Below are positions 12,965-46,862 of a stretch of DNA of 64,000 bases, in pieces (the first letter of the stretch is position 1; every line of letters begins with the position of its first letter). The notes under the pieces are model-generated. The model was not told where the DNA came from and did not search any database. It was given only the letters and a program-made list of their open reading frames with translations. The translations under genes and the position numbers were made by a program. Source of the DNA: Rhizobiaceae bacterium CPCC 101076 (GTDB taxonomy: Bacteria > Pseudomonadota > Alphaproteobacteria > Rhizobiales > Methylopilaceae); NCBI GenBank assembly GCA_003347645.1, contig QDFX01000004.1, forward strand, positions 1 to 64,000, in the 5' to 3' direction.

Positions 12965-12984
12965 CAAGCTTGCGCGAGCATTGA
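12965..12984 (-). promoter_or_regulatory. Flagellar-promoter element, fliF copy
   Basis: On the plus strand it reads CAAGCTTGCGCGAGCATTGA. It matches the core CTTGCGCGAG shared with sites before flagellin, motA, flgE and flgB. It lies 60-79 bp upstream of fliF. Inference: a binding site for FtcR or another common flagellar activator. Confidence 0.65.
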
Positions 12985-12991
12985 GCCAAAG

Positions 12992-13021
12992 AAAAAAGCC
13001 ACGCCCCCGTGGGGGCGTGGC
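12992..13021 (-). terminator. Rho-independent terminator after the flagellin gene
   Basis: A perfect 11-bp GC-rich inverted repeat (12998-13008 and 13011-13021). The two central bases plus a closing pair form the loop. A run of six T follows on the minus strand. It lies 30 bp past the flagellin stop and insulates fliF from flagellin transcription. Confidence 0.92.
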
Positions 13022-13051
13022 CGGTAAAGCGGCGGGGATAGGGGGAGCCGC

Positions 13052-14086
13052 TTAGCCGCGGAACAGCGAGAGGATGTTCTGGCTGTTCGAGTTCGCGATC
13101 GACAGCGCCTGGATACCGAGCTGCTGCTGAACCTGCAGAGCCTGGAGGCGGGTCGATTCCGCGTTCATGTCGGCGTCGACAAGCTGACCGATACCGCGGG
13201 TAACGGCGTCCGTCAGAGCCTTGACGAAGTCCTTCTGCGTATCGACGCGGTTCTTCACCGCACCGAGGTTCGCAGCAGCATCCGTCAGCTGGCCGAGGGC
13301 GGCGTCGACGATCTCGATATAGGCCGTCAGCTTCGCCTGGTCGGCAGCCGAGTCGGTCAGTTCAGAGATGTCGAGGTCTTCGATCGAAAGCGTGATGGCA
13401 GTATACGTCGGCGCAGCAGTACCGACCGGAGCGTTCTCAACCGTGACGCTATACTCAGCGTCGAAGAGGCCTTCGCCGCCAACCTTGACAACGCCTGCGG
13501 CAGCGCCTGTGGCGTCCGCGGCCGGAGCCGTGCCAACGGCGGTCGCCGTCGTGCTGCCGTCGTAGAGCTTGATCTCGGCAACGCTGACGTCGATCGTCTC
13601 GATCGTGATCGAGTCGCCGACACGCGTGAACGAGGCCACGATCTGCTTGGTGTCGTTGTAGCCGGTGGCGCTGGAGTCGACCGAGAGCCAGTTCTCGCTG
13701 TTGAACACAGCGGAGCTCGCGATGCTCTCCATCTGGCCGAGGCGGGCGTCGATGTCGGCCTGGATCTGGCCGCGGTTGACACCCGGGGTCTTGGCGCTGG
13801 TGAGGAGCTTCTTGATCTCGGAGAGCTGGTCGACGGTGCCGTCGAGAGCCGTGTACTGCACGTCCACCGTCGCGGCGCCGAGGCCGAGAGCGTCCTGAAC
13901 GGCCGAGAGAGCCTTGTTGTCGGAACGCATGGTGGTCGCGATCGACCAGTAAGCAGCACCCTCGGAAGCCGTCGCGATGCGCAGGCCCGTCGAGATGCGG
14001 TTCTGGGTCGTGTCCATCGACCGGTTGGTCGAGTTCAGGGTCTGGAGAGCGGTCATCGCCGCTGCATTGGTCAGAAGGCTGGCCAT
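13052..14086 (-). CDS. Flagellin
   Basis: A 344-residue filament subunit. The N-terminal D0/D1 region (MASLLTNAAAMTALQTLNST ... TGLRIATASEGAAYWSIATTMRSD) and the C-terminal helix (ADMNAESTRLQALQVQQQLGIQALSIANSN) are typical of rhizobial flagellins. The central domain (about 150-250) is short and rich in Thr, Ser, Ala and Val, giving many possible O-glycosylation sites. It is the only flagellin in the window. The start at 14086 has AAGGGA upstream; the longer frame to 14137 is leader RNA. The leader folds into two exclusive hairpins that cover or free this site. The divergent neighbour is a TPR-GT41 glycosyltransferase likely to modify it. Confidence 0.95.
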   Translation of the reverse strand: MASLLTNAAAMTALQTLNSTNRSMDTTQNRISTGLRIATASEGAAYWSIATTMRSDNKALSAVQDALGLGAATVDVQYTALDGTVDQLSEIKKLLTSAKTPGVNRGQIQADIDARLGQMESIASSAVFNSENWLSVDSSATGYNDTKQIVASFTRVGDSITIETIDVSVAEIKLYDGSTTATAVGTAPAADATGAAAGVVKVGGEGLFDAEYSVTVENAPVGTAAPTYTAITLSIEDLDISELTDSAADQAKLTAYIEIVDAALGQLTDAAANLGAVKNRVDTQKDFVKALTDAVTRGIGQLVDADMNAESTRLQALQVQQQLGIQALSIANSNSQNILSLFRG

Positions 14087-14090
14087 TTTC

Positions 14091-14143
14091 GTATGTCCCT
14101 TGTGTAAGTGTTGATCGGGGACATACCGGGCTTTCACCGGTAT
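14091..14143 (-). promoter_or_regulatory. Alternative hairpins in the flagellin mRNA leader
   Basis: Seen directly: pair 1 has arms 14123-14129 and 14137-14143 (7 bp, 7-nt loop). Pair 2 has arms 14091-14099 and 14118-14126 (9 bp, 18-nt loop). They share 14123-14126, so they exclude each other. Pair 2 contains the flagellin Shine-Dalgarno (AAGGGA). Known: FlbT of Caulobacter binds the flagellin leader RNA and controls its translation and stability. flbT and flaF are encoded at 42.1-42.9 kb. Inference: this is the FlbT/FlaF-responsive switch. Confidence 0.6.
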
Positions 14144-14220
14144 AGCAGGAGCGGCTTCATGCCCTTGGATGCGTCGTTTGGTTTGCGATCCAACCTGCTA
14201 TGCGACCCACTATTCCGGCT

Positions 14221-14240
14221 GAAGCTTGCGCGAAGCTTAA
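14221..14240 (-). promoter_or_regulatory. Flagellar-promoter element, flagellin copy
   Basis: The plus strand reads GAAGCTTGCGCGAAGCTTAA. It contains a perfect AAGCTT inverted repeat with a 5-bp spacer (14222-14227 and 14233-14238). It is the most symmetric of the five copies. It lies 135 bp upstream of the flagellin start and 115 bp upstream of the divergent glycosyltransferase start, so it could serve both. Confidence 0.65.
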
Positions 14241-14354
14241 TCCGACGCCGCAAGTCGTAGACATCTCGAAAATAACTTCGGACAGCCCTGCACAAGATTG
14301 GTGTCGAGAATGCCCGCGTACGCCTTGTGCGTGCATGGACGTTCGGAGACAGGT

Positions 14355-16520
14355 ATGAATCGCAAGCAGAGACGGGCCGCCGCAAAGCAGGAGCAGCCGC
14401 TACAAGGAGCGCGCAACGCGCCGAACGTGTTGTTCGTCCACGCCACGTCGCTGCAGAACGCCGGCAAGCATGAGGAAGCCGAGCAGCTATACCGCTCGAT
14501 CCTTGCCGCCTACCCAGATCATCCAGGTTGTTTGAACCATCTCGGCGTTCTCACACGAGCGCAGGGGAATCTTGAGGAGGCCGCGGCCCTTCTCCGTCGC
14601 GCCGTTGCGGTCAAGCCGGACTACGCGCAGGCCTTCGTCAATCTCGGCGGCGTGCTGCGCATGCTCGGGCATCTCGACGAGGCGATGTCGGCCTGCCGCA
14701 AGGCGATCACGCTGAAGCCCGATCTCGCCGATGCCTTCACCAATCTCGGCAATCTGCTGATGGATGCAAAGCGGCCCGGGGAGGCCGTTCTGGCTTTCCA
14801 GCGCACCGTCGAACTCGAACCGAACAATGCCCGCGGCTTCGCCCGGCTCGGCGTCGCACTCGCCGAGGACATGCGCATTGGTGAAGCCTCGCTCGCCTAC
14901 GAACGTGCGCTCGAGATCGAACCGAACTCCAAGCATCTGCACTTCCATCTCGGAAATGCGTTGGCCAGCCTCGGTCGCGACGCACCGGCGCTGGAGGCGT
15001 TCAAGCGCGCGGTCGCCCTCGATCCCTCCTATGCGCCCGCGTATCACAATATGGTCGCTATCCTTCAGCGCTGGGGCATGCTCGCCGAAGCGATGATGAT
15101 CACGCGCAAGCTGATCGACTTGAGGCCGGACCACGCGCTCCACCGCTTCAATTACTGCCACCAGCGGCACCATATCTGCTCCTGGGACGGGCTGGCGGAG
15201 GACGAGGCCGATCTCCTCACTGCTGAGGAGGACTTCGTTCCGTTCATCGTGCTGACGATGGACTCCACGCCCGCGCAGCAGCTGCATTACGCAAATCGCT
15301 GGGCCAACGCTCTCGGCGCCGAGGGCGCCGCGCGCCTCTGGACGCCGGCGACGGCCCGCGCGCGTGATAACGACCGTATCCGCATCGGCTATCTCTCGAA
15401 CGATTACCAGAAGCACGCGACCGCGTTCCTGATCGCCGAACTTCTGGAACGGCACGACCGCGATCGCTTCGAGGTCATCGGCTATTCGTACAGCCCGGAC
15501 GACGGTAGCGATATTCGCCGCCGCCTCACCTCGGCCTTCGACCGGTTCGTCGACATCCGCGAGACGCCCGACGCCGTTGCCGCCCGACAGATCCACGCCG
15601 ACGGCGTCGACATCCTCATCGATCTCAAGGGCTACACGCTCGGCGGTCGCAACCAGATCCTGATGTGGCGCCCGGCTCCGGTCCAGGTGAACTATCTCGG
15701 CTATCCGGGAACGATGGGCGGCAACTTCGTCGACTACATCGTCGCCGATCCGTTCATCGCGCCGTTCGACCATCAGCCGTTCTACGCGGAGCGGATCGTT
15801 CACCTTCCGAACTCGTACCAGCCGAACGACACGCGGCGCGAAATCGCGACGCCGCCATCACGCGAGGAGTGCGGCCTGCCGCCATCTGGCTTCGTGTTCT
15901 GCTCGTTCAATAACACCTACAAGATCACGCCGCCGGTTTTCGACATCTGGATGCGGCTCCTGAAAGCCGTGCCGGGCTCGGTCCTCTGGCTTCTCGAAGC
16001 CAACAGACTCGTGAAAGACAATCTGATGCAGGAAGCGGCGAAGCGGGGCGTCGATCCCTATCGCCTGGTCTTCGCGCCCAAGCTTCAGATTGCCGAACAT
16101 CTCGGCCGTCACGCACATGCCGACCTCTTCCTCGACACGCTGCCGGTCAACGCCCATACCACCGCGAGCGATGCGCTCTGGGCCGGCTTGCCTGTACTGA
16201 CCTGCGCCGGCGACACCTTCATCGGCCGCGTCGCCGGCAGCCTGCTGCACGCAATAGGGCTACCGGAACTCGTAACCCATTCGCTCGAGGAGTACGAAAC
16301 CCTGGCGCTTCGCCTGGCGACCGATCCGGACCTTCTCTCAGGCCTCCGTGAACGCCTGGTGGCGAACCGTCTCAGCGCGCCCCTCTTCGACATCGGACGC
16401 TATTCGCGCGATCTCGAAGCCGCCTACCTCCGGATGTGGGAGATCCATCAGGCTGGCGGCGCGCCGGCGGCATTTGCCGTCGAGGACGGAGCCGGACAAC
16501 CGAGCCTCCTGAGCGCCTGA
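14355..16520 (+). CDS. TPR-GT41 (OGT/SPINDLY-like) glycosyltransferase, likely flagellin glycosyltransferase
   Basis: A 721-residue protein. After a basic start (MNRKQRRAAAKQ), about seven tetratricopeptide repeats occupy residues about 24-265. A GT41 catalytic region follows at about 335-700, with the OGT-type motifs GYLSNDYQKHATAFL, DILIDLKGYTLGGRN, PVQVNYLGYPGTMG, FCSFNNTYKI and DALWAGLPVLT. The His of QKHATAF and the Lys of NTYKI match catalytic/UDP-contacting positions of OGT. Known: FlmG of Caulobacter, a TPR-glycosyltransferase, glycosylates flagellin. Being divergent from flagellin and leading a sugar-modifying cassette, this is probably its functional counterpart. GGAG lies 8 nt before the start. 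The donor sugar is unknown. Confidence 0.85.
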   Translation: MNRKQRRAAAKQEQPLQGARNAPNVLFVHATSLQNAGKHEEAEQLYRSILAAYPDHPGCLNHLGVLTRAQGNLEEAAALLRRAVAVKPDYAQAFVNLGGVLRMLGHLDEAMSACRKAITLKPDLADAFTNLGNLLMDAKRPGEAVLAFQRTVELEPNNARGFARLGVALAEDMRIGEASLAYERALEIEPNSKHLHFHLGNALASLGRDAPALEAFKRAVALDPSYAPAYHNMVAILQRWGMLAEAMMITRKLIDLRPDHALHRFNYCHQRHHICSWDGLAEDEADLLTAEEDFVPFIVLTMDSTPAQQLHYANRWANALGAEGAARLWTPATARARDNDRIRIGYLSNDYQKHATAFLIAELLERHDRDRFEVIGYSYSPDDGSDIRRRLTSAFDRFVDIRETPDAVAARQIHADGVDILIDLKGYTLGGRNQILMWRPAPVQVNYLGYPGTMGGNFVDYIVADPFIAPFDHQPFYAERIVHLPNSYQPNDTRREIATPPSREECGLPPSGFVFCSFNNTYKITPPVFDIWMRLLKAVPGSVLWLLEANRLVKDNLMQEAAKRGVDPYRLVFAPKLQIAEHLGRHAHADLFLDTLPVNAHTTASDALWAGLPVLTCAGDTFIGRVAGSLLHAIGLPELVTHSLEEYETLALRLATDPDLLSGLRERLVANRLSAPLFDIGRYSRDLEAAYLRMWEIHQAGGAPAAFAVEDGAGQPSLLSA

Positions 16521-16650
16521 CATATTGGGCTCCGGGGCGAACCGCCCTGGAGCCGCAAGCGCACCGCAAGGTTGGGGCCAGTCTCGAAGACTACCCTCCA
16601 TCGCAGCGTGGGCATCAAGGCCCCTCATTCCACAATCGAAGGCATTCCGA

Positions 16651-18165
16651 ATGTCGATGACCGAAAACGCCAGCATCTCGAAGGCGCTGATCTTCATGAC
16701 AGCGCGCAATTGCGAGAAGTATGTGCCCGACTCCCTCGCGAGCCTGGCGCGGCAGACGTTGAGGGACGTCCACGTCCTGTTCATCGATGATTGCTCGGAA
16801 GACAAGACCGGAGCCGTAGCGCAGCAATTGCTGGGCGACCTCTTTCCGGCGCGGCACACGTTCATCCGCAACGAGACGCGCCTGGGCAAGGCCCGCAACG
16901 CCTGGGAGCATCTGCGCCCGCTGACGGGAATTGCCGAATTTGTCGCGGTGCTGGACGGTGACGACCAGCTCGTCGAAACGACCATCCTCGACCAGATGTC
17001 GACCGCATACCGGAACGGCAAGGACGTCGTCTGGACGAACTACATCACCGACAAGGGACTGATTGGCAGCAACGGACCGCTCAATCCCGATCTGCCGCTG
17101 CGCCCGCAGGGCTGGAAGACCAGCCACTTCTTCAGCTTTCGCGCATCGCTGTTCGACACCGTGCCCGAGCACTGCTTCAAGGATCGCGACGGCGAATGGC
17201 TGCAGGCGGCCTGCGATATCGCGCTCGCAATGCCGATGATCGACCAGACCCGCGAGTACGAATACATCCCGGTCAACGCCTATCGCTACACGTCCGCCAA
17301 TCCGAACTCGCATCACAACCTCGATGCGACGTCGAGCGGGCTGAACTCGACCGTTCAGGCCAAGAACTTCCGCGAGCTGTTCACCAGGGCGCCTCTGCCC
17401 CTGCTGAAGCAGGTTCAGGCTGAAGCCGCTGCTCCAGCTCCTTCCCAGGCTCCGGCTGCCGCTCCGACGCCTTTGCCGGGTCCGGCCCAGACCCTGCCTC
17501 CGGCCGATCGGATCGCCATTGCGTCGGCGCTCAACCATGTCGGTACGTGGCAGGACCTGGCCGGCGGCATGCTGATGGTCGAATGCCCGCATCTGATGAA
17601 CGCACTGGCGTTCGGCGGTCAGAGTCAGATGACGCCGATCCAGGCATGGGCCCTGCGCGGCCTTCTCCAGAACCGAGGCGCCGACGCCCGTATCCTGCAT
17701 ATCGGCGCGACCCGCTCCGCCCTCGTCCTGGCGGCGCTCTCCTCGCTCACCGACGGCCGCATCACCAGCCTGTGCGCGTCCGCGCCGGAGGCCGAGGAAC
17801 TTCGCGTGCGTATCGCGGCATCCGGCCTTGCCGACAGGGTCGAGATCGTCGAGACCAATGTGGTGCAGGCGATCTTCGACGAGTTCTCGGGTCCGTTCCC
17901 GGACATCCGCGTCATCGAGGAAGGCACGAAATTCGACTTCGTGATGATCGATCTGCCGCCGACCCTTCCGCAGGCCAGCGCGCTGGTCTCGCTCTCGGTG
18001 GTCGCCAATTACCTGTCACCGGAAGGCTTCGCGCTCTGCCTGCTCGCCCGCGACCGCGCGACCGAGGCGCTCGCGGAAGAACGCTGGCGGCCGATCAGCA
18101 ACGGATTGAGCTTCTGCCCGAACGCGCTGGGCGGTTCCGGTCTGATGATCGCCGGCGGACGCTAG
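16651..18165 (+). CDS. Bifunctional GT2 glycosyltransferase / methyltransferase-like protein
   Basis: 504 residues in two modules. Residues 10 to about 240 form a GT2 fold: ALIFMTARNCEKYVPDSLAS, VLFIDDCSED, and the metal-binding DGDD at 102-105. A linker of about 35 residues made mainly of Ala and Pro (near 254-290) joins it to a Rossmann-like module (about 330-500; ARILHIGATRSALVLAAL, FDFVMIDLP) resembling SAM-dependent methyltransferases. A usual GxGxG is not intact in that module, so methyl-transfer activity is uncertain. GAAGG lies 8 nt before ATG 16651. It lies 130 bp after the GT41 gene on the same strand. Probable role: extension and modification of the flagellin glycan. Confidence 0.75.
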   Translation: MSMTENASISKALIFMTARNCEKYVPDSLASLARQTLRDVHVLFIDDCSEDKTGAVAQQLLGDLFPARHTFIRNETRLGKARNAWEHLRPLTGIAEFVAVLDGDDQLVETTILDQMSTAYRNGKDVVWTNYITDKGLIGSNGPLNPDLPLRPQGWKTSHFFSFRASLFDTVPEHCFKDRDGEWLQAACDIALAMPMIDQTREYEYIPVNAYRYTSANPNSHHNLDATSSGLNSTVQAKNFRELFTRAPLPLLKQVQAEAAAPAPSQAPAAAPTPLPGPAQTLPPADRIAIASALNHVGTWQDLAGGMLMVECPHLMNALAFGGQSQMTPIQAWALRGLLQNRGADARILHIGATRSALVLAALSSLTDGRITSLCASAPEAEELRVRIAASGLADRVEIVETNVVQAIFDEFSGPFPDIRVIEEGTKFDFVMIDLPPTLPQASALVSLSVVANYLSPEGFALCLLARDRATEALAEERWRPISNGLSFCPNALGGSGLMIAGGR

Positions 18166-18202
18166 TCCGCGCAAACCAATCACTCGCAGGAGGGCTTGCC
18201 AG

Positions 18203-19171
18203 ATGACCGAAGCCGTACCCACGATCCGGTTCGACCGTGCTTACCCGGCCCCCGGCGTGGGCGATTTCGGCACGCCGCACGATGCCGGTCATCGGCCCGG
18301 CCCGCTGGCGACGATTTCCCGGTTCGGCGCGGACGTTCGGTTGGAGCATGCCCGGATTTCGCTCGGCACCAGGCATTTCGATGTTTTTCACACCGATCCT
18401 CAGGACCACATCTTCAAGATCGTGAAGAACTCGAGAAGCTTCTACGAAGCGGGCTTTCTCTACGCGATCGCCAAGCACCTGAAGCCCGGCGATCTCGTGG
18501 TCGATGCGGGCGCCAATATCGGCAATCACACCCTGTTCTTCGCCGGCGCGCTCGGATGCCGCGTCACCTGCTTTGAACCCGGCCCTCTCACCGTTCAATT
18601 GCTGCAGCATAACGTAGCCGCGAACAATCTCGCCTCCCGGGTCGAGATATGGCCGTTCGCGCTTGCGGAAACATCGGCCCAGTTCGCGTCGAAGGACGCC
18701 GCCGCCGTGCAGCAACTGGGTCTCGGCGCCCTGACGCTGCGGCCGGACGCAGGCGGCGAGATGCGGGGCATCCCGCTCGACAGCGTCCCGTTCGATCAGC
18801 GGATCAAACTGCTCAAGATCGACGTCGAGGGCATGGAACTCGAGCTTCTGCGCGGCGCAAGGGAAACACTTCTGCGCGACCGCCCCGTGATCTGCGTCGA
18901 ATGCGACGACCTGAATCGCTTCGATCAGCTTTTCGACTATCTGTGCGGGCTCGGATTCCTCGCGATCGACAGCCACAACTACACGGCCACCCACGTCTTC
19001 GTCCCCGTCGACAATCCTTCGGTGATCGAGGCCTCGCTCTCGCGGCAGATGGCCTCGCGCTATATCTCGCACGCGCGCCAGATCCACGCGCTCGAAGGCC
19101 GCCTGGCCAATGTCGAGAACCTGCTGCGCCGCATCCAGTTCGTCAGCCGGCCGGAAGGCTCGCCGCAATAA
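18203..19171 (+). CDS. FkbM family methyltransferase
   Basis: A 322-residue SAM-dependent enzyme. The FkbM domain spans about 75-245: motif I is LVVDAGANIGNHTLFFAG, followed by VTCFEPGP, and the characteristic KLLKIDVEGMELELLRGA near residue 205. FkbM-type enzymes O-methylate sugars or other hydroxyls. The C-terminal 60 residues are helical (LEGRLANVENLLRRIQF), possibly for dimerisation or binding partners. AGGAGGG lies shortly upstream of the start. As the third gene of the cassette beside flagellin, it probably O-methylates the flagellin glycan, as known for methylated flagellin sugars in other bacteria. Confidence 0.85.
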   Translation: MTEAVPTIRFDRAYPAPGVGDFGTPHDAGHRPGPLATISRFGADVRLEHARISLGTRHFDVFHTDPQDHIFKIVKNSRSFYEAGFLYAIAKHLKPGDLVVDAGANIGNHTLFFAGALGCRVTCFEPGPLTVQLLQHNVAANNLASRVEIWPFALAETSAQFASKDAAAVQQLGLGALTLRPDAGGEMRGIPLDSVPFDQRIKLLKIDVEGMELELLRGARETLLRDRPVICVECDDLNRFDQLFDYLCGLGFLAIDSHNYTATHVFVPVDNPSVIEASLSRQMASRYISHARQIHALEGRLANVENLLRRIQFVSRPEGSPQ

Positions 19172-19201
19172 CGACCCGGCGACGAAGAGAAAGATCGTCA
19201 G

Positions 19202-20725
19202 ATGACTGAAGCCAGAGGATCCACATTGTTCCGATTCGATCGCCCTAGTGGTTTCATCGAGACGAGCGGGTTCGACGGTGACGTCGCCGCGCTGGTCGCC
19301 GCGGACCTGAACGCGAAAATTCGCGACGATCGCGGACCGCACACGCCTCCGCCTCCACGCGAAGCTTCACCCCGCCCCACCGAAACACCGGGCAAGGGCT
19401 TCGACAGCGCCGCCTACTGGTCGCAGCGCTACCGCACGGGAGGCAATTCCGGCGCCGGTTCCTACGGCAGGCTCGCCGCCTTCAAGGCGGAAGTCATCAA
19501 CGCGTTCGTCAAGGAACGCGGCATCAATTCCGTGATCGAATTCGGATGCGGTGACGGCGCGCAGCTCAAGCGCGCGGAATACCCGATCTATCTCGGCTTC
19601 GACGTGGCGGACAAAAGCATCGAGATGTGCCGTGCGGCGATGGCCGGCGACACGACAAAGGCCTTCCGGAACGCGCAGGACTACAAGCACGAGCGCGCCG
19701 ATCTCACGATGTCGCTCGACGTCATCTATCACCTCATCGAGGATGAGGTGTTCCACGAATATATGCGCCGGCTGTTCTACTCGGCCGAGCGCTACGTCAT
19801 CGTCTATTCGTCGAACCGCAACGCTTCCTGGCCTGCCGCACATGTGAAGCACCGCAAGTTCACCGATTGGGTCGAAAAGCACCACGCGGACTTCAAGCTG
19901 GTTCAGCACATCCCGAACCGCTATCCGCCAGCCGGCGATCCAGAGAACGAGAGCTTCGCGGATTTCTACATCTTCGAAAGGCTGCCCTCGCAGAGGCACA
20001 CGCTGCCCGGACACCTCGTCGTCTCGGTCACGTCCTGGGTGAAGCGTTTCCCGACGCTAGAGCTGACGCTGCGTCGTATCCTGCAGCAGAGCATGACGCC
20101 CGACGAAACCGTCCTCTGGGTGTCGCCGCAGGACGTCGAACATCTGCCGAAAGGCGTGATCGAGCTGCAGCGCAGCGGCCTGTCCATCCAGGTGACCAAG
20201 GACATCCGCTCCTACAAGAAGATCATTCCGGCGCTGAAGCGATATCCCGACAGCTTCATCATCACGCTCGACGACGACCAGATCTATCCGCGCGACGTGA
20301 TCGAGCCGCTGGTGAGTAATTATCGTTCGCCGACGGAAATCCTCTGCCGCCGCGCGAACCAGATGAAGTTCGACGACAAGGGCAAGCTGCTGCCCTACCT
20401 GAAATGGCGGTTCGACTATCCGGACGAGGGCGACGGCTTCGACCTGTTCCCGACCGGCTGCAACGGCGTGCTCTACCCGCCGAAATCGCTGTCGCCGGAG
20501 GTGCTTAACGAAGAGCAGTTCATGAGCCTCGCACCGCATGCGGACGATATCTGGCTGTTCTGGATGGGCCGCCTCGCCGGCAGCACGATCCGCCGCGTCG
20601 GCCGTCCCTGGCACAATGTCGTCTGGCCGGGAACGGAAGAATCCTCGCTGATGCATCACAACTGGAACGGCGGCAACGATCAGCAGATCGCCGCGATGAC
20701 GGAGCGCTACGGCTCCCCGTTCTGA
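19202..20725 (+). CDS. Methyltransferase-glycosyltransferase fusion protein
   Basis: 507 residues. A variable N-terminus (1-65, Pro-rich near 45-60) precedes a class I methyltransferase-like domain (about 70-250; VIEFGCGDGAQL, LTMSLDVIYHLIEDEVF). A second domain follows (about 270-505; LVVSVTSWVKRFPTLELTLRRI, IITLDDDQIYPRDVI) that resembles GT-A glycosyltransferases with a DDD motif. The domain order is the reverse of the 16651-18165 protein. Its start (MTEA) resembles that of the FkbM gene. It is the last gene of the cassette, 30 bp after FkbM. Inferred role: another step of flagellin glycan assembly. Confidence 0.75.
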   Translation: MTEARGSTLFRFDRPSGFIETSGFDGDVAALVAADLNAKIRDDRGPHTPPPPREASPRPTETPGKGFDSAAYWSQRYRTGGNSGAGSYGRLAAFKAEVINAFVKERGINSVIEFGCGDGAQLKRAEYPIYLGFDVADKSIEMCRAAMAGDTTKAFRNAQDYKHERADLTMSLDVIYHLIEDEVFHEYMRRLFYSAERYVIVYSSNRNASWPAAHVKHRKFTDWVEKHHADFKLVQHIPNRYPPAGDPENESFADFYIFERLPSQRHTLPGHLVVSVTSWVKRFPTLELTLRRILQQSMTPDETVLWVSPQDVEHLPKGVIELQRSGLSIQVTKDIRSYKKIIPALKRYPDSFIITLDDDQIYPRDVIEPLVSNYRSPTEILCRRANQMKFDDKGKLLPYLKWRFDYPDEGDGFDLFPTGCNGVLYPPKSLSPEVLNEEQFMSLAPHADDIWLFWMGRLAGSTIRRVGRPWHNVVWPGTEESSLMHHNWNGGNDQQIAAMTERYGSPF

Positions 20726-20951: not shown

Positions 20952-20976
20952 AAGGGAGGCTCGATGGGCCTCCCTT
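20952..20976 (-). terminator. Rho-independent terminator after fliP
   Basis: A perfect 9-bp inverted repeat (20952-20960 and 20968-20976, 7-nt loop). On the minus strand it ends in a T-run (TTTTT). It lies 21 bp past the fliP stop. A weaker imperfect repeat at 20741-20767, without a T-run, could end the plus-strand cassette. Confidence 0.88.
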
Positions 20977-22919: not shown

Positions 22920-23623
22920 AGCTGTTCTCCCTTCGTGGGCATGCCGGAGGCACCCGCGAGCATGTTGGCGAGCTGCGCCGCGCGTATCGGCTCCATCTCG
23001 TTGAGGATCGCGCTGGAATTGCGCGCATTGAGTTTGGCGAGCACGGCGGCGGCGGTTTCGTCGTCCATCGCCGCGAGCTGGCCGGCGGCGGCATCAGGAC
23101 GCATTCGCGAATAGATCGCGACCATGTCCTCGCGCGCCTGCTTGAGGAATTCCTCGCGCTTGGTGAGCCATTCCTCGTATTCGGCGCGCTTCTTCTCGAG
23201 CGCGGCTACCTGTTCGGCGACCTGCTTCTCGAGCGTTTCGAGCGTTGCCGTCTGCCAGGCCACGCGGGCGTCTGCGGCGGCATCGCGGATATTGACGCAG
23301 TACTGGCGGGCCTCCTCGGTCAAGGCGCGCATCTCGACGCCGGAATGGCTCGTCGACAGCTTCTCGACAGGCGAGACGTCAAGCGCGCCGAGCGGCTTTG
23401 ACTTGTCGTCCTTCTTCGGCGCGGTCTTGTCGGCCGGAACGAGTTTCTCCGGACGCGAGAGCGGCATCGGCACCGTCTGCGCCTTGGCGGCCTGCATGTT
23501 CGTGCTGGCCATCATCATGAAGAGAACGAGCTCGCCCGCGGAGAACAGGCGCAGCACCTTTCGGGAGCGCTTGGGCATGGATCCGTGTCCCGTGCTGGTG
23601 GAAATATCCGTCATGACCGCCAT
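22916..23623 (-). CDS. motE: MotE family protein (MotC chaperone)
   Basis: A protein of about 235 residues with an N-terminal hydrophobic segment, a Pro/Lys-rich stretch, a long coiled-coil region (LEKQVAEQVAALEKKRAEYEEWLTKREEFL) and a C-terminal MgtE-N-like helical part (RPDAAAGQLAAMDDETAAAVLAKL). Known: MotE of Sinorhizobium is a periplasmic chaperone that stabilises MotC (8002-9195). The start is uncertain: a GTG at 23674 overlaps the flgI stop (GTGA), ATGs occur at 23623 and 23614, and MPKRSRK at 23578 would place the signal segment closest to the N-terminus. None has a strong ribosome-binding site. Confidence 0.85.
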   Translation of the reverse strand: MAVMTDISTSTGHGSMPKRSRKVLRLFSAGELVLFMMMASTNMQAAKAQTVPMPLSRPEKLVPADKTAPKKDDKSKPLGALDVSPVEKLSTSHSGVEMRALTEEARQYCVNIRDAAADARVAWQTATLETLEKQVAEQVAALEKKRAEYEEWLTKREEFLKQAREDMVAIYSRMRPDAAAGQLAAMDDETAAAVLAKLNARNSSAILNEMEPIRAAQLANMLAGASGMPTKGEQL

Positions 23624-23670
23624 CGTGGCGCGACGAACTTGCGCGGGGCTGGAACGCCCCGCGCCCGGCG

Positions 23671-27817: not shown

Positions 27818-27859
27818 GAACAGAGCTCCCTCTGGGCTTTCATGGAGATCGTGACGCTG

Positions 27860-27879
27860 TAAACTTGCCCGAGGCTGGC
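27860..27879 (-). promoter_or_regulatory. Flagellar-promoter element, flgB copy
   Basis: The plus strand reads TAAACTTGCCCGAGGCTGGC, aligning with the CTTGCG(C/T)GA(A/G)GCT core of the other four sites. It lies 43-62 bp upstream of flgB. It is the most divergent copy (C for G at one core position). Confidence 0.55.
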
Positions 27880-27901
27880 GTGCCGTTCGGGGTGTCTTAT
27901 T

Positions 27902-33153: not shown

Positions 33154-33201
33154 GGTCCCGGCTCCCTTTTGCCCCGATGGAACGAGAGCAGGCTAGAAAC
33201 C

Positions 33202-33221
33202 GAGGCTTGCGTGAGGCTTGG
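33202..33221. promoter_or_regulatory. Flagellar-promoter element between motA and the DUF1217-flgF-fliI operon
   Basis: The plus strand reads GAGGCTTGCGTGAGGCTTGG. It lies 49-68 bp upstream of motA and 68-87 bp upstream of the divergent DUF1217 gene. The element is partly symmetric, so it could serve both directions. Confidence 0.6.
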
Positions 33222-33288
33222 CCGGTTCGAAACAGCCCCGTGCAAGGTTCAGGGATCACTCTTCCCGCGTGAAGCAGGAGAGCAAGAA

Positions 33289-34413
33289 ATGCTGTCGACG
33301 CCAGTCAGCTTTCAGATGATCACGCGGGACATGAACGCCACGCTGAACAGGACGGCCAACCAGCCCGACGTGAAGCGCGCGACCGAATATTACCGCGAGA
33401 ACATCACCAAGGTGTCGAGCCTCGACGAGTTCTTCGCCGATCCCCAGCTCTACAATTACGCAATGAAGGCCTATGGCCTCGACGACATGATCTACGCCAA
33501 GGCGTTCATGCGGAAGGTTCTGGAGAGCGATCTCGCCGACCCGAACAGCTTCGCGAACAAGTTGGTCGACACCCGCTACCAGGAGTTCGCCAAGGCGTAC
33601 GGGTTCGCGAAACCCGTTCCCCAGAGCGATGCGTCGTTCATCGATATCGAGACCAGATATGCCGAAGTATCGAAGGAAGAATTCGACTTCGGCGACGCCC
33701 TGATCCGGCTCGAAACAGCAGCCTACGAGCAGGGTATGGACCGGGTGACTTCGGTCGACGACTTCCTGAAGAACGACCATCTCGTCGATTACGCGCTGAC
33801 CGCGTTCAAGCTGGATGCCCCGGGCCGCACCATCGTGGCCGAAAAGAACTTCCTTCGGCAGATCCTGACCAGCGATCCAAGTGACGAGGACAGCTTCGCC
33901 GCCCGTCAGACCAACCCGAATTGGGCCGAATTCGCAAAGGCGTTCAACTTCGGCGCCGAGGGCAACGTCACCGTCCAGCAGTCGGCGACCGTCGACAAGA
34001 CGGTGCAGAACTATCTGCGCCAGACCGTCGAGGTGAACGCCGGCCGGGACAATGAAGGCGTCCGACTCGCGCTCTATTTCGAACGCAAGGCGCCGACGAT
34101 CGTGAGCGCCTATTCGATCCTCGCCGACAAAGCGTTGATGCAGGTTGTCCAAACCACGCTCGGCCTATCCGAACAGGCCGGCTCGGCCGACATCGACGTG
34201 CAGGCGAATTACATCGCCAGCAGGATCGACATCGAAAATCTCGCCGAGCCAGATGAACTCAAGAAGTTCCTCACTCGCTTCACCGCGATGTGGGAAGTCG
34301 CCCATCCATCCGCTCCGCAATCCGTTCCAAATCTTTTGTCCGGCCAGCCAGGCCAGCTCATGAGCGTCGACACGCTGATGAGCCTTCAGGGCCTCAGGCT
34401 CGGAGGAAACTGA
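33289..34413 (+). CDS. DUF1217 domain flagellar-locus protein
   Basis: A 374-residue soluble protein of the DUF1217 family, found in rhizobial flagellar clusters before flgF. It contains repeated helical units: DEFFADPQLYNYAMKAYGLDDMIYAKAFMRKVLESD and DDFLKNDHLVDYALTAFKLDAPGRTIVAEKNFLRQILTSD are clear copies, and a third starts near VVQTTLGLSEQAGS. It has no signal peptide. The start at 33289 has AGGAG 8 nt upstream; the frame is open further upstream but lies antisense to motA. It is the first gene of the operon with flgF (3-bp gap) and fliI. Function is not established; the repeats suggest binding of a rod or export partner. Confidence 0.82.
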   Translation: MLSTPVSFQMITRDMNATLNRTANQPDVKRATEYYRENITKVSSLDEFFADPQLYNYAMKAYGLDDMIYAKAFMRKVLESDLADPNSFANKLVDTRYQEFAKAYGFAKPVPQSDASFIDIETRYAEVSKEEFDFGDALIRLETAAYEQGMDRVTSVDDFLKNDHLVDYALTAFKLDAPGRTIVAEKNFLRQILTSDPSDEDSFAARQTNPNWAEFAKAFNFGAEGNVTVQQSATVDKTVQNYLRQTVEVNAGRDNEGVRLALYFERKAPTIVSAYSILADKALMQVVQTTLGLSEQAGSADIDVQANYIASRIDIENLAEPDELKKFLTRFTAMWEVAHPSAPQSVPNLLSGQPGQLMSVDTLMSLQGLRLGGN

Positions 34414-37506: not shown

Positions 37507-38115
37507 TCAGAAACGGGAAATGTTGGCGTGCATCGCGGCCAGCTGTGCCGGCTGGGAAACGGGCGGCTGGCGATCCGGCATCTGCGCGTCCTTGTTCAGC
37601 AGCCGATCGGCGATGCCGATGCCGCCGGAGCGCGCCATCTGCTTGCCGAGCTGCTCGGCCAGCATGGATTTCCAGATGTCGCCGGCGGTGCCCTCGCCGT
37701 AAACCTGCTCGGCGTTCTGCGGCAGCATCGAGCCGATGAAGCTCTGCAGAACCATCGCCTCGAAATCCTGCATCGCCTTGGTACGGCGATCGGCGCCGGA
37801 CGGACCGGCGTCGGCGACGCGCGTGGTCGTGGCGGTGTCGTTGCGCATCTTCAGCCGGGCGCGGTTGACGTCGAACGGCATGGACGGCTCGTAGCTGTAG
37901 GGAACCTGCTTGGCCGAGGCGAGGTGCGTCTTCGCCTGATCGAGAGCCTTCTCGATCTTCGGCTTCGCTCCTTCGACCTTTTCCATCACATCGGCGAACT
38001 GCGTGTTCGCGGTCTCGCCGAGCTTCTGCAGCTTGGCGGTCGCGACCCTCAGCTTTTCGGGGTTCGCGGCTTGCGAGACCTCGAGGATGATGTCCGACGG
38101 GGGTTTGATCGCCAT
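37507..38115 (-). CDS. FlgJ N-terminal-like rod-binding protein
   Basis: 202 residues. The rod-binding domain is at about 110-170: AMQDFEAMVLQSFIGSMLPQ, then GTAGDIWKSMLAEQLGKQMARSGGIGIADRLL, matching the N-terminal (rod-capping) half of FlgJ. The muramidase half is absent; the window's transglycosylase (6247-6822) is a candidate for that task. The N-terminal 100 residues are an extension with helices. It lies between the FliJ-like and FlgN-like genes in the flgE operon. Confidence 0.8.
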   Translation of the reverse strand: MAIKPPSDIILEVSQAANPEKLRVATAKLQKLGETANTQFADVMEKVEGAKPKIEKALDQAKTHLASAKQVPYSYEPSMPFDVNRARLKMRNDTATTTRVADAGPSGADRRTKAMQDFEAMVLQSFIGSMLPQNAEQVYGEGTAGDIWKSMLAEQLGKQMARSGGIGIADRLLNKDAQMPDRQPPVSQPAQLAAMHANISRF

Positions 38116-38162
38116 CAGCGAACTCCGGGAACCTGATATCCGGAGAGCGTAGAGGCTCTAGC

Positions 38163-38573
38163 TTACGGCAGGCTGGTGTCGGGCTTCCGGGCGAGGAATT
38201 GTTCGATCAACCCTTCGAGCTCGCGCTTGCCCTGGACCGCGTCGACTTCTCTCGAGACCTTGTCGATCATGGTCTCCGCGAATTTCGCGTGACGCGCCTG
38301 CACCAGTACGCGCTGGGTCTGGAACGCCTTGATCGGCTGCAATGCCTGTTGTCGTTCATTGACGCGTTTGAGCCGCCCGGCCATGTCATCAACGAACAGG
38401 CCGTGCAGCGCGTCGTCGTCGTTCAGCGCGGTGATGAGCACCTGGCGCTTGTTGTTGAGCTCGGCTTCCTCGGCGTGCAGGTGCGCCAGCCTGATCTCCT
38501 CGATGCGTTTCAGCTGATGACGGAGGTCAGCGATCCGGCGGATCGAGCGGAGGCGTTTCGCGTCGGCCGTCAT
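38163..38573 (-). CDS. FliJ-like coiled-coil export protein
   Basis: A 136-residue, strongly helical, charged protein without signal or membrane segments (RIADLRHQLKRIEEIRLAHLHAEEAELNNKRQVL ... ERQQALQPIKAFQTQRVLVQARHAKFAETMIDKVSREVD). Length, coiled-coil nature and position in a type III export operon fit FliJ, which escorts chaperones to the FlhA/FliI gate. FliJ is poorly conserved, so this is context-based. Its ATG overlaps the fliR stop (ATGA). Confidence 0.6.
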   Translation of the reverse strand: MTADAKRLRSIRRIADLRHQLKRIEEIRLAHLHAEEAELNNKRQVLITALNDDDALHGLFVDDMAGRLKRVNERQQALQPIKAFQTQRVLVQARHAKFAETMIDKVSREVDAVQGKRELEGLIEQFLARKPDTSLP

Positions 38574-41412: not shown

Positions 41413-41430
41413 GATCGCGTTCTCTGTCCC

Positions 41431-42098: not shown

Positions 42099-42114
42099 GA
42101 TCGTCGTCTCCTAG

Positions 42115-42561: not shown

Positions 42562-42905
42562 GCCAGACCTGCCCGGATGATTCCGTTGATCTCGATGAGC
42601 CCGTCGAAGTTCTCCGATTCGTGGCGGCGGATCTGTTCGGCTTCCTTGATGATCCAGAGGCCGATCGAGATCAGGTCGGCGCGGAGCGCTTCCGGAAGGT
42701 CGTTCTCAGGCTGCGCCAGGTCCTCGATCAGGTAGCTCCACAACCGGCGCAGATAGAGAACGGCGTCGATCGCCTCGCGCGACTTGGAACCCTTGGTCTT
42801 GGCCAGTTCGAGAAGCTCGACGGCACGGTCCATGGCCATCGCCTCGTGCTGGCGGGAGAGGCTTACTGCGTCTCCGACGATGTCGGCATACGAAAACTGA
42901 TGCAT
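42558..42905 (-). CDS. flaF: Flagellin expression regulator FlaF
   Basis: A 115-residue helical protein with the FlaF pattern (RQHEAMAMDRAVELLELAKTKGSKSREAIDAVLYLRRLWSYLIEDLAQPENDLPEALRADLISIGLWIIKEAE). FlaF acts with FlbT on flagellin synthesis and secretion. It lies directly downstream of flgL (56-bp gap) and overlaps flbT by 4 bp. Confidence 0.94.
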   Translation of the reverse strand: MHQFSYADIVGDAVSLSRQHEAMAMDRAVELLELAKTKGSKSREAIDAVLYLRRLWSYLIEDLAQPENDLPEALRADLISIGLWIIKEAEQIRRHESENFDGLIEINGIIRAGLA

Positions 42906-42961
42906 GAAACACCACTCGGTTAAGGTCGGGACGAGCCGGTCATCCGGCTCGCGGGTTCGCG

Positions 42962-44029
42962 TCAGAGGTAATTCAGAAGGCTCAGCTGCTGCGCACGCGC
43001 GGTCAGCGCGTAGGCCATGTCGAGCTGCGTCTCGAGTGCGGTCACCCGAGTCTGCGCCTCGTAGGGGTCGACCAGTTCGAGATCGTTGATGTGCGTGTTC
43101 AGGATCTTCATCTGAACATCCATCCGGTCATTGGCGTTCTTGACCCGCTCCTGCGCAGTGCCGAGACGGGCCATGACGACCGTCGTGCTGGAGATCGCCT
43201 CGCCGACGATTTCCGCCGCCTTGTCGATGACAGTCTGATAGGCGCCCTCGGACAGGTTCGACGAGGCGAATTCGGTCACCATCGTGTAGGCCATGGCAAT
43301 CTTGCGAAACGCCGCCTCGTTGGCATTGGCCGAGGTGTCGACCAGTTCTGAGGTCGAGATACGGCTGCGGACGTTCTGGTCTGATGCCGAGGACCAGCCA
43401 GTGGTCGGGTCGGTCCAGGCGGCCGGATCGAACATCGCCGCGAAGGCGCCGTTGAGGAACGCATCCATTGCCGCCGGGGTGATGTTGATCACCGCCGGAT
43501 CGTTCTGCGCCATGCCGAACGCGGTGAGGAAGGCGTCGTCGACCGCGGCCTTCGGGCCGGTGCCCGGAACGACCGGCGTCGCGTAGTAATCGGTCACAGG
43601 GCGAACGTCGGTGTCGATGCCGGCGAAGAGATATTCGCCGTCGATCGATGTGTTCAGCGAGGCGATCAGCGCCTGGAGATTGTTCTTGGCGTCGTCCTGG
43701 ATAACGTCCGCGCCGGTGTCGCCGGTGCGAACGCCGATCAGCGAGGCGGAGAAGTCCTGCGCCATTTTCAGCATGCCTTCGAGCGCCGCCTGGCTGCCGT
43801 CGAGGCGAGACATCACGAGGCCGTTCGTATCCTTGATGCTATCGAGCCGCGCGAAGTCCTGGCGGAGCGAGACCGTGCGACCCGTCTTGTTGCCGAGTTC
43901 GAGGCCGACATCGGCCCAGCGGCCGGAGCCGAGCTCCTTGCTGTTCTTCGCAAGCTCGGCCTGCATCTTCATGATCGAGAGCCTTGTCGCGCTCGAAACG
44001 GCCTGGGTGGAGATGAATGTGGTCTTCAT
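42962..44029 (-). CDS. flgL: Hook-filament junction protein FlgL
   Basis: A 355-residue flagellin-like protein. Its N-terminus (MKTTFISTQAVSSATRLSIMKMQAELAKNSKELGSGR) and C-terminus (LVDPYEAQTRVTALETQLDMAYALTARAQQLSLLNYL) are typical for rhizobial FlgL. The ATG at 44029 has AGGTGA 7 nt upstream; a GTG three codons earlier is less likely. It lies 14 bp after flgK. No fliD is in the window. Confidence 0.93.
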   Translation of the reverse strand: MKTTFISTQAVSSATRLSIMKMQAELAKNSKELGSGRWADVGLELGNKTGRTVSLRQDFARLDSIKDTNGLVMSRLDGSQAALEGMLKMAQDFSASLIGVRTGDTGADVIQDDAKNNLQALIASLNTSIDGEYLFAGIDTDVRPVTDYYATPVVPGTGPKAAVDDAFLTAFGMAQNDPAVINITPAAMDAFLNGAFAAMFDPAAWTDPTTGWSSASDQNVRSRISTSELVDTSANANEAAFRKIAMAYTMVTEFASSNLSEGAYQTVIDKAAEIVGEAISSTTVVMARLGTAQERVKNANDRMDVQMKILNTHINDLELVDPYEAQTRVTALETQLDMAYALTARAQQLSLLNYL

Positions 44030-44043
44030 GGCTGTCACCTGGT

Positions 44044-45489
44044 TCAGGCTGCGTCGAGAAGGGCTTGCAGCATCTCGTCCACCGCGGCGATCAATTTGGC
44101 CGAGGCGGCGTAGGTCCGTTCGATTTGAAGCTGCTGCGCGAGCTCGTCGTCGAGGTTGACGCCCGTCGCGTTCGACAGCGCCTCGGAGGCGCGTTCGAGC
44201 TTGGTCGTCTGGAACGTGGATTCGTTGTCGACCTGCTGGCGGTTGAATTCGAGCCAGCTGACCGAGGATGCCGCGTAGTCCGCGAGCGTATTCGACGGAT
44301 CGGCGCCGGAGGCCGGATCGAAGCCGCGCGACTGACCGAGTTCGCCAACGATGTCGTTGAGGCGGTCGGCGAAGCCGGCGACGGCTTCGGTATTGTAATT
44401 GTAGGTGATGCCGTCGCGGATCGCGTCGAGGTCGCCGCCCTGCTCCGGATCGATCGCCGGATTGACGAAGATCGTGCCTGCAAGGCCGGGTTCGATGACG
44501 CCGGTCGTGAGCGTGCCGCCGGTCGGCCAGTCGAATATGCCAGGCACATCCGGGCCCACGCCAAGTGGATCGCTTTCCGCGAACACCTCAATCAAGCCGC
44601 GCGCGACCTCGTCGAGTTGGCTCTGATAGGTGACTGTCGTCTCGTCGCGAAGCGTCGCAAGGCCGTAAAGTCGGCCGGTCTGGCTCGCCATGGTCGATGA
44701 ACCGCCGACGACCGGAACGCCGTCGACATAAACCGCATTGCCGACCGTCGTCGCACCATAGACGTTGGTCGGCTGGAAGCTGACCTCGCGCGGCGACTTC
44801 TCGAACAGGGTGACGCCACCATCGGTATAGAGCGCGATGTCGTTGTTCTCGCGTACCACGACCGAAATCCCGATCTCTTCCGAGAGCTGCGCCAGGATAT
44901 GGTCGCGGGTGTCGAGATTGTCGGTGACGTCGGCGCCCAACACCGTACCTTTGACGACGGCGGTGTTGGCGGCCTCGAACTGGGCGAGCAGACCGTTGAT
45001 CCGGTCCACGGAAGCCGCCATGTCCGCATCGGCGAGCGCTCGCGTCGCCTGAACGGTCGTGGTGGCATCGTTCAGCGCGACGGCCATCTCGCGAGCCGCC
45101 CCGAGCACCGCCTGCGCCAGGATCGAATTGTCCGGAGCGGCGGCATACTGCTGCAGCTTGTTGGTCAGGCTGCCAAGCTTCGCCGCGACGCTCTGGTCGA
45201 GTTCGGGATCGCCGACCGTTTCGGAAAGCTTGGTCAACCCGTCTAGGAGAGCCTGCTGCCCGGCGGCGGCAGACGTCGATTTCAGCATGGTCTTGTACAG
45301 GGCCGCATCGGTCGCGCGCTGGATCGAGACGACCTGTACGGTGCCGCCCTCGCCGGTGATGACCACCGCCGATTTGCGCGAATAATAACTCTCGCTCCCG
45401 TTCGCGATGTTGCGCGAGGAGGTCGCCGTCTGCACGCCCGTCGCCTGGAGCGAGGATTTTGCGACGTTGAGTGCGAGAGAGAGAGACAT
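44044..45489 (-). CDS. flgK: Hook-associated protein FlgK
   Basis: 481 residues. The N-terminal motif is LSLALNVAKSSLQATGVQTATSSRNIANGSESYYSRKSAVV and the C-terminal motif VNLDDELAQQLQIERTYAASAKLIAAVDEMLQALLDAA. It forms the first hook-filament junction zone. It lies 29 bp after flgE. Length is usual for the order. Confidence 0.94.
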   Translation of the reverse strand: MSLSLALNVAKSSLQATGVQTATSSRNIANGSESYYSRKSAVVITGEGGTVQVVSIQRATDAALYKTMLKSTSAAAGQQALLDGLTKLSETVGDPELDQSVAAKLGSLTNKLQQYAAAPDNSILAQAVLGAAREMAVALNDATTTVQATRALADADMAASVDRINGLLAQFEAANTAVVKGTVLGADVTDNLDTRDHILAQLSEEIGISVVVRENNDIALYTDGGVTLFEKSPREVSFQPTNVYGATTVGNAVYVDGVPVVGGSSTMASQTGRLYGLATLRDETTVTYQSQLDEVARGLIEVFAESDPLGVGPDVPGIFDWPTGGTLTTGVIEPGLAGTIFVNPAIDPEQGGDLDAIRDGITYNYNTEAVAGFADRLNDIVGELGQSRGFDPASGADPSNTLADYAASSVSWLEFNRQQVDNESTFQTTKLERASEALSNATGVNLDDELAQQLQIERTYAASAKLIAAVDEMLQALLDAA

Positions 45490-45518
45490 GACCTGTTACC
45501 CGGTTTTGGAAGGCCCGA

Positions 45519-46796
45519 TCAGCGCTTCAGGTTGACGAGAACGTCGAGAAGATCGGAGCCGGTCTGGAAGACCTTGGAGTTGGCGGTGTAGCCGCGCTGC
45601 GCCTCGATCATCGCGGTCAGCTCGGCCGCCATGTCGACGTTCGACTGTTCGAGCGCGCCCGACTTGATGACGCCGAAGCCGGCCGAGTTCGGGAAGCCGA
45701 TGGACGGATCGCCCGATTCCAGCGAGATCGCATAGGCGTTGCCGGCGACCGGGGTGAGGTTGTCCGGGCTCGGCACGTCGGCCATCGCGAGCTGGTAGGT
45801 CGCGAGACGCGTGCCGTCCTCGAACACAGCGAAGACCACGCCGTCATTGCTGATCTCGATGGCCTCGACCGACTGCGGCTTGTTGCCGTTGACGTCCGGA
45901 TCCGGAACGAAGTCAGCGCTGGCGAGCTGGGTCATCTCGGTGAAGTCCATGGTCATCACCTGACCGTTCGGAACGGTAAGGCTGACCGGCACCGGGAGAA
46001 TGCCGGTGAACTGTCCGTCCGTGCCCGAGAAGGTGATCGCACCCTCGTACAGGGCGGCGGAACCGGCCGCGCCGTAGGGGAAGCCGCCGGCGGTCGCCGT
46101 CGCGCGGTCGTAGACCGAGACTTCCCAGGTGTTCGCCGCCGTCTTCGTGAAGTAGACGTCGAGCAGCACCTCGTTGCCGAGATTGTCGTAGACGCTCAAC
46201 GAGGTCTTGTTGGTGTACTGCGAGGCGGCGGTGTTTTCGCCCGCCGTGTCCGCCGTTGCCGGATCGACGATCGCGGCGTTCGAATTCAGGTTGGCGGCGC
46301 CGAGCGCGCCTTCCGTCGTCGGCGTCGCGGTCATGCCCGCGGCGTAGATGTTCACCGGAACGAGACCGGCGAGGCTGTTGGCCACCGGGGTCGGCGGGCC
46401 GTTCGCCAGGTCGTAGCCCATCAGCTGATAGCCGCCGGCATTGAGCAGCGAGCCATCCGGCTGCGGGCGGAACGAACCGGCGCGGGTCAGATAAGGCGTG
46501 CCGGCCGCGTTCTGGACGATGAAGAAGCCCGAGCCGCCGATCGCAAGGTCGTAGCCGTTGCTCGTCGGCATGATCTGGCCGGATTCGCTGATCGCGTAGC
46601 GGGTCTGGGTCGACACGCCGCTCGGCATGTAATTGCCGACCTTGCTGTTGCCGATCACCAGGGTCGAGAACTCGGTCGACGCCCTTTTATAGCCGGGGGT
46701 GTTGGTGTTCGCGATGTTGTCGGCCGTCGTCGCGAGCTTGTTGCCCTGCGCATTCATGCCCGAAACACCCGTCCGCAGTACGCCGTAAAGACTCAT
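45519..46796 (-). CDS. flgE: Flagellar hook protein FlgE
   Basis: A 425-residue hook subunit. The N-terminal motif is SLYGVLRTGVSGMNAQGNKLATTADNIANTNTPGYKRASTEF, the beta-rich middle domain has the sequence NLGNEVLLDVYFTKTAANTWEVSVYD, and the C-terminal motif is SNVDMAAELTAMIEAQRGYTANSKVFQTGSDLLDVLVNLKR. The ATG at 46796 has AGGAGA 8 nt upstream. It leads a 13-gene operon down to 36554. The shared flagellar element lies 47-66 bp upstream. Confidence 0.96.
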   Translation of the reverse strand: MSLYGVLRTGVSGMNAQGNKLATTADNIANTNTPGYKRASTEFSTLVIGNSKVGNYMPSGVSTQTRYAISESGQIMPTSNGYDLAIGGSGFFIVQNAAGTPYLTRAGSFRPQPDGSLLNAGGYQLMGYDLANGPPTPVANSLAGLVPVNIYAAGMTATPTTEGALGAANLNSNAAIVDPATADTAGENTAASQYTNKTSLSVYDNLGNEVLLDVYFTKTAANTWEVSVYDRATATAGGFPYGAAGSAALYEGAITFSGTDGQFTGILPVPVSLTVPNGQVMTMDFTEMTQLASADFVPDPDVNGNKPQSVEAIEISNDGVVFAVFEDGTRLATYQLAMADVPSPDNLTPVAGNAYAISLESGDPSIGFPNSAGFGVIKSGALEQSNVDMAAELTAMIEAQRGYTANSKVFQTGSDLLDVLVNLKR

Positions 46797-46842
46797 TGCC
46801 GCTTCTCCTGAAGCCACCTGTGTTGGCTACAAGAAACCCGGC

Positions 46843-46862
46843 CACCCTTGCGTGAAGCTGAT
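46843..46862 (-). promoter_or_regulatory. Flagellar-promoter element, flgE copy
   Basis: The plus strand reads CACCCTTGCGTGAAGCTGAT. The core CTTGCGTGAAGCT fits the other four copies. It lies 47-66 bp upstream of flgE, close to the spacing at flgB and motA. Confidence 0.6.

Follow-up and report, generated by a model that had tools for sequence, protein, structure and literature searches.

The window analysed here (64,000 nt; contig QDFX01000004.1, positions 1–64,000, from Rhizobiaceae bacterium CPCC 101076) carries a flagellar gene cluster, and a first-pass annotation had described a shared 20-bp element in front of five of its transcription units (fliF, flagellin, flgB, motA/DUF1217 and flgE). 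This observation is confirmed, widened from five sites to ten and re-read as a direct repeat, CAAG-N7-CAAG on the strand of the genes, followed at a fixed distance by a -10-like box. The sequence comparisons show that the repeated element is a real, conserved operator/promoter element, very probably of FtcR/Rem/LafR type. In all likelihood it would be the operator of the cluster's own FtcR/Rem/LafR-type regulator (5259–5933, minus strand), which would cover the -35 region as a tandem dimer and activate the cluster.

Ten sites and their architecture

All five 20-mers are present in the window sequence where they had been placed, and a scan of both strands of the 64 kb for their core, CTTGC[GC][CT]GA[AG], gave six matches, each of them on the plus strand. 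The sixth, missed earlier, is at 5204, between ftcR and a DUF2141 open reading frame (ORF). As had been noticed, no exact copy of the core is intragenic (curated gene picks with corrected starts), and the short distances between site and start codon also hold (fliF, 60 bp; flgB, 43 bp; motA, 49 bp), with 68 bp for DUF1217 (ATG at 33289) and 47 bp for flgE (likely ATG at 46796), as does the more upstream position of the flagellin copy, 135 bp from the likely ATG at 14086. The sites had been aligned on the plus strand; because the five named operons (fliF, flagellin, flgB, motA, flgE) are encoded on the minus strand, the alignment was corrected and the element is to be read as the reverse complement. 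Read so, it is a direct repeat with an 11-bp period, CAAG-N7-CAAG, and a -10-like NANNNT box lies downstream. The AAGCTT inverted repeat pointed out in the flagellin copy arises trivially, AAGCTT being palindromic in itself, and an inverted-repeat reading of the element was rejected, the direct repeat with 11-bp period alone being common to the sites.

An expectation-maximization motif search covering at most 240 bp in front of fliF, in the window and in 39 named loci with related FliF (mostly Hyphomicrobiales, judged by name), returned CAAn-N7-CAAG-nTT-N7-NANNNT, with CAAG present in 39 of the 40 fliF upstream regions and CCAG in Pannonibacter (L068). Self-matching of the first half-site peaks at 11 bp (4.24 of 8 letters, compared with 0.75–3.07 at the other shifts from 5 to 19), and the second half-site is the stronger one of the pair. 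Within the window, the repeat match inside a site is 8/8 for motA, 7/8 for flagellin and 2–4/8 for the other eight sites. With site choice based solely on the repeat columns (89 of 95 fliF, flagellin and flgB upstream regions; effective number ~17), CAAG and the hexamer were a fixed 14 bp apart, and the -10 positions showed 100% A and 75% T (weighted); the test is slightly circular, as the repeat columns go back to sites that the full matrix had picked out. Of the features of OmpR/PhoB-type tandem operators, the ~11-bp direct repeat, the fixed distance to the -10 and a placement over the predicted -35 are all seen in the sequence, and the predicted layout is that of an activator covering the -35.

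Sites were scored with a matrix built from 92 sites of other genera (38 fliF, 24 flgB, 23 flagellin, 6 flgE and 1 motA; own genus excluded), those before flgB, flagellin, flgE and motA having been picked at ≥14 bits by an earlier matrix derived from fliF only. The window holds 11 matches of at least 12.5 bits, i.e. ten promoter sites and one 13.1-bit match inside a GT2 gene at 16565 that is probably due to chance, against 0.5 expected per 64 kb. Seven matches reach 20 bits, a score not attained once in simulation (40 windows from a third-order Markov model, 2.56 Mb in all; 0.5 matches per window at 12.5 bits and 0.05 at 17 bits).

The five sites first described are thus real, and the list was incomplete. 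The highest-scoring is the fliF box with its -10 (12950–12985, minus strand; 30.8 bits; CAATGCTCGCG-CAAG...GAAAGT), upstream of a fliF gene (11274–12905, minus strand) whose product shares 72–74% identity with its counterparts in the named Pleomorphomonas loci; it is also the best match of its own genome in a profile search. The flagellin box and -10 (14206–14241, minus strand; 27.9 bits; TAAGCTTCGCG-CAAGCTTC...AATAGT) precede the flagellin gene (13052–14137, minus strand; NF009329, 3e-114). Both sites have orthologues in a second genome of the genus, G003. The flgB operon box and -10 lie at 27845–27880 (minus strand; 27.6 bits), and 24 of 27 flgB upstream regions of the named loci score ≥14 bits with the fliF-only matrix. 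The single site assigned to the motA/DUF1217 gap is present, and the gap in fact carries two back-to-back sites, one per direction: a perfect direct repeat, CAAGCCTC-ACG-CAAGCCTC, for motA-fliM-fliN-fliG-flhB (33187–33222, minus strand; 22.7 bits) and a new box for DUF1217-flgF-fliI (33230–33265, plus strand; 21.6 bits), separated by 7 bp in both the window and G003. The last of the original five heads flgE-flgK-flgL-flaF-flbT-flgD-fliQ-flhA-fliR (46828–46863, minus strand; 20.1 bits; G003, 23.0 bits).

Besides the DUF1217 box, four further promoter sites are new. An internal promoter after flgI, before motE-flgH-fliL-fliP, has a box at 23619–23654 (minus strand; 24.5 bits; G003, 27.5 bits). 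A box between the ftcR stop codon and the DUF2141 gene (5185–5220, minus strand; 17.4 bits) and a weak box before flgJ (Rod-binding; gene at 37507–38115, box at 38143–38178, minus strand; 12.7 bits) are found in the same places in G003 (18.7 and 13.5 bits, respectively). The fourth, a divergent box at 14280–14315 (plus strand; 14.2 bits), faces a TPR/GT41 gene (14298–16520, plus strand; true start probably near 14356) and scores 22.1 bits in G003 (C10:133578); the single other GT41 match tested among the named loci has no site. Every flagellar gene identified in the cluster sits downstream of some box among the ten.

In the G003 cluster (FliF 75% identical) the ten best matches are at the same ten promoters, the next match scoring 11.2 bits. 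The fliF-only matrix had given no valid motE site among the named loci; with the 92-site matrix, from whose training set motE is absent, 19 of 29 motE upstream regions of other genera score ≥17 bits. For flgE the figure among named loci is 10 of 30, many of these being probably cross-matches to other rod genes. The site is retained in otherwise diverged upstream regions of Pleomorphomonas, Microvirga, Roseibium, Ancylobacter, Pseudovibrio and Mesorhizobium.

An FtcR-type regulator beside the cluster

The proposed binder is encoded by an ftcR/rem/lafR-type gene (5259–5933, minus strand; 224 aa), with a degenerate receiver and a Trans_reg_C winged helix (PF00486, 8.8e-14); a Pfam search gave no Response_reg match in this protein, and among NCBIfam models CtrA comes nearest to it, at 76 bits where the cut-off is 350. 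The AlphaFold model (mean pLDDT 87.8, pTM 0.56) matches OmpR/PhoB response regulators in Foldseek, with TM-scores of 0.81–0.87 for single domains and 0.33–0.57 for the whole chain, the latter low because the domain arrangement differs; the Foldseek matches include the PhoB-pho box complex (1gxp) and an atypical phosphorylation-independent regulator (2hqr). When the protein was aligned with 14 relatives, the C-terminal helix was strongly conserved, and the column expected to hold the phosphate-accepting Asp (assigned by eye) contained E, Q or G in all 15. It is 54% identical to a Mesorhizobium xinjiangense protein (L066). The product is a member of the OmpR/PhoB family that appears to resemble FtcR, Rem and LafR. 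An FtcR-type gene lies within 10 kb of fliF in the window, G003, Pleomorphomonas, Mesorhizobium and others; in Roseibium, Pseudovibrio and others it has a separate genomic location. A MASE1 histidine kinase gene (2983–4644, minus strand) is the second gene downstream of ftcR.

The suggestion that the element may be the FtcR/Rem site gains comparative support from this gene beside the cluster, from the tandem geometry and from the co-occurrence of fliF site and FtcR. An FtcR-type protein was found in all 23 searched genomes of the named fliF loci (22 full length, 51–81% identity, and one cut-off fragment), and the other 16 of the 39 loci have an FtcR-type gene or a locus-end fragment of one within the locus stretch. 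In a sample of 121 genomes of the order, FtcR is present in 24 and a rhizobial-type fliF (E below 1e-100) in 19, own genome included, all 19 with FtcR. Among 19 FtcR-positive genomes outside the training set, which include same-genus pairs (G068/G145, G103/G138, G108/G143) and possibly near relatives of training genomes (e.g. G115 and Ancylobacter), the fliF upstream region scores ≥17 bits in 14 (G003, G039 and G040, plus 11 of another 15). FtcR-negative genomes (no match at E 1e-25 or 1e-40, depending on the search) contributed 33 fliF loci, none of which has a strong site; all 33 score ≤5.8 bits.

These observations are consistent with a mechanism in which two regulator molecules would occupy the -35 region in head-to-tail orientation, each on one CAAG-type half-site; with the half-sites spaced 11 bp apart, both would lie on a single face of the DNA. 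Given the 14 bp between the second half-site and the -10 hexamer NANNNT downstream of it, the bound dimer is proposed to stand in for the -35 element and to recruit a sigma-70-type RNA polymerase. With the box at the head of the cluster's flagellar operons, a single orphan regulator, predicted to lack the usual phosphate-accepting Asp, could activate the genes for basal body, export, motor, hook and filament in concert. FtcR, Rem and LafR have been called master regulators of rhizobial-type flagella; the box would provide their precise target and predicted starts at ten promoters, and would allow the regulon to be read from sequence in other species.

Competing explanations and known systems

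Several results weigh against assigning the element to FtcR. The region upstream of ftcR itself has no box (best score in the window, -7.3 bits; 0 of 14 loci at ≥12.5 bits, several of these genes being incomplete), whereas Brucella FtcR is reported (PMC9456535) to bind its own promoter. The motif obtained there by chromatin immunoprecipitation sequencing and electrophoretic mobility shift assay, TGTGGGCA, differs from CAAG-N7-CAAG and is absent from both strands of the window; conversely, the box calls TGTGGGCA into question as a flagellar operator. Five FtcR-positive genomes have a fliF without a good site (G018, 4.4 bits; G142, 4.7; G103, 6.7; G138, 7.9; G070, 9.8), and five genomes of the order sample (G034, G107, G112, G153, G157) have FtcR without a rhizobial-type fliF match. 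Profile searches gave 0–8 weak matches in each FtcR-negative genome, and a 20.4-bit match at G005:C5:140458, in a genome without an FtcR match. In the stretch holding the second flagellar system of the same genome, the fliF-only matrix had a best match of 12.0 bits, without CAAG.

That the box is a genuine operator of another OmpR-family regulator, such as CtrA or a paralogue, which merely co-occurs with FtcR, is improbable. Its geometry equals that of the CtrA full site, TTAA-N7-TTAA near the -35 (PMC6180460), and the window's FtcR is closer to the CtrA model than to any other in NCBIfam, but the box is absent before fliF in all 33 FtcR-negative loci with other flagella, and CtrA-like boxes of the same genome stand before its other fliF. 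A CtrA-box reading was rejected, as TTAA-N7-TTAA does not occur in the window and the best fits around the ten sites have 2–4 mismatches in 8. Less probable still, and very unlikely, is the reading that the box marks the promoters of a dedicated sigma factor, of sigma-28 or sigma-54 type, and is no activator site: a promoter-like position with a -10-like box at fixed distance would suit it, but an 11-bp tandem repeat at the -35 is no sigma pattern, and the best fits to the two consensus strings around the ten sites have 3–6 mismatches in 12, at scattered positions. GG-N10-GC occurs in four of the ten sites, at four different positions, and a sigma-54 promoter (GG at -24, GC at -12, strict spacing) was rejected for want of a common register, as was the sigma-28 promoter TAAA-N15-GCCGATAA (best fits with 4–6 mismatches in 12). 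Chance, or common ancestry of functionless upstream DNA, might be invoked for a pattern as short as the one first described, and upstream regions of related species are alike; such an origin is nevertheless hardly credible given the ~20-fold excess over the null at 12.5 bits, the seven matches against none at 20 bits, and the persistence of the site in otherwise diverged upstream regions of six genera and at ten promoters of one genome.

Like the protein proposed here, Rem (Sinorhizobium), FtcR (Brucella), LafR (Bradyrhizobium) and ActR (Azorhizobium) are described as OmpR/PhoB-type regulators tied to a rhizobial-type flagellar cluster, with class II targets such as fliF and flgE and, in Bradyrhizobium, a similar dual-flagella arrangement. 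The literature search, of partial depth and not extending to the founding papers, which may hold priority, found for Rem, FtcR or LafR neither a comparable operator nor a defined one that would explain the flagellar operons. The winged-helix effector domain resembles that of PhoB on the pho box (1gxp; Foldseek TMt 0.85), whose half-site sequence is other than the CAAG type. PhoB likewise uses a tandem site upstream of the -10 and is under phosphorylation control, of which the proposed regulator may be free. The CtrA box of Caulobacter-type flagellar promoters, as given in PMC6180460, also consists of two half-sites in 11-bp tandem near the -35 and activates flagellar genes; its half-site is TTAA, here CAAG. 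HP1043/HsrA of Helicobacter pylori, according to PMC5253667 and PMC8345958, is an orphan regulator with a degenerate receiver that recognises direct repeats of TTTAAG with a 5-bp spacer, i.e. 11 bp centre to centre, with a dimer proposed on one face of the DNA; its half-site is different, and it is described there as an essential regulator of diverse genes and no activator of a flagellar cluster.

The second flagellar system and other occurrences of the box

The second flagellar system of the same genome serves as an internal control; its fliF, on C1, encodes a protein 31% identical to the window's FliF. The 92-site matrix found nothing above 9.5 bits in the 60 kb of this second system (C1:95001–155000), and ~50–130 bp upstream of the second fliF are relaxed CtrA-like boxes, TTAA-N8-TTAA (by search) and TTAA-N7-TTTA (by eye). 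Two other genomes of the genus, G001 and G002, have the second-type fliF alone and no FtcR. The two systems, one with the FtcR-type box and the other with CtrA-like boxes before its fliF and no box in the stretch examined, parallel the split in Bradyrhizobium, where, according to PMC8429497 and PMC10888616, the lateral flagella are under LafR and the subpolar one has CtrA as its named master regulator; LafR is stated to control the lateral and not the polar flagellum without need of phosphorylation (PMC8429497). Two boxes of equal geometry may be how one cell separates two flagellar systems. A broader proposal, possible yet doubtful, is that CAAG-N7-CAAG is the general FtcR/Rem/LafR operator in Hyphomicrobiales, that a half-site switch from CtrA-type geometry separates the two systems, and that in this genome a box at C38:159195 was gained before the CtrA-type motAB, by which the lateral-type regulator could also raise the stators of the other system.

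The genome-wide motif search proposed earlier was run as a profile search (local mode; 150 of 1402 own-genome candidates scored). Flagellar promoters came top, the four best matches being fliF, flagellin, motE and flgB, with 6 of the 15 listed matches inside the window; counts alone do not discriminate, because FtcR-negative genomes also match, G005 at 20.4 bits as noted above. The null predicts ~3 matches of 17 bits per genome and gave none at 20 bits in the 2.56 Mb simulated. A 29-base exact pattern, fitted after the sites were known and missing fliF, occurs at eight places in the own genome (3.7 Mb), five of them in the window, compared with none for a reversed control; elsewhere the difference is less clean (4 vs 3 in G003, 3 vs 1 in G002, 0 vs 2 in G001). 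Outside the window, a match at C1:89560, antisense within a fliI gene, was judged to be chance, and intergenic matches were found at C34:146888 (SBP_bac_3), C38:159195 (motAB) and C12:76340 (small ORF). The C34 box (24.9 bits) precedes a family-3 solute-binding protein gene, the best counterpart in G001–G003 scoring 9.6 bits. The C38 box (23.3 bits) precedes a second motA-motB pair in the own genome only among four genus members, and a CtrA-like TTAA..TTAG downstream of it is seen in all four. The C34 and C38 boxes, without good counterpart in G001–G003, may be due to chance. In G034, one of the five genomes with FtcR and no fliF match, a stretch of C5 (G034:C5:438159–443149; L099) combines an FtcR gene with two strong boxes (24.3 and 23.0 bits) ~4–5 kb away; none of the other queried cluster genes of the window was found in this 20-kb stretch.

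Two neighbouring loci in the window also lie behind boxes. The DUF2141 gene (4692–5192, minus strand; start probably later) directly follows ftcR and has its own FtcR-type box, which is kept in G003. Divergent from flagellin, 14298–20725 (plus strand) comprises the TPR/GT41 gene, a GT2 gene, a FkbM methyltransferase gene and a further methyltransferase-like gene, and is a candidate flagellin-glycosylation unit behind an FtcR-type box.

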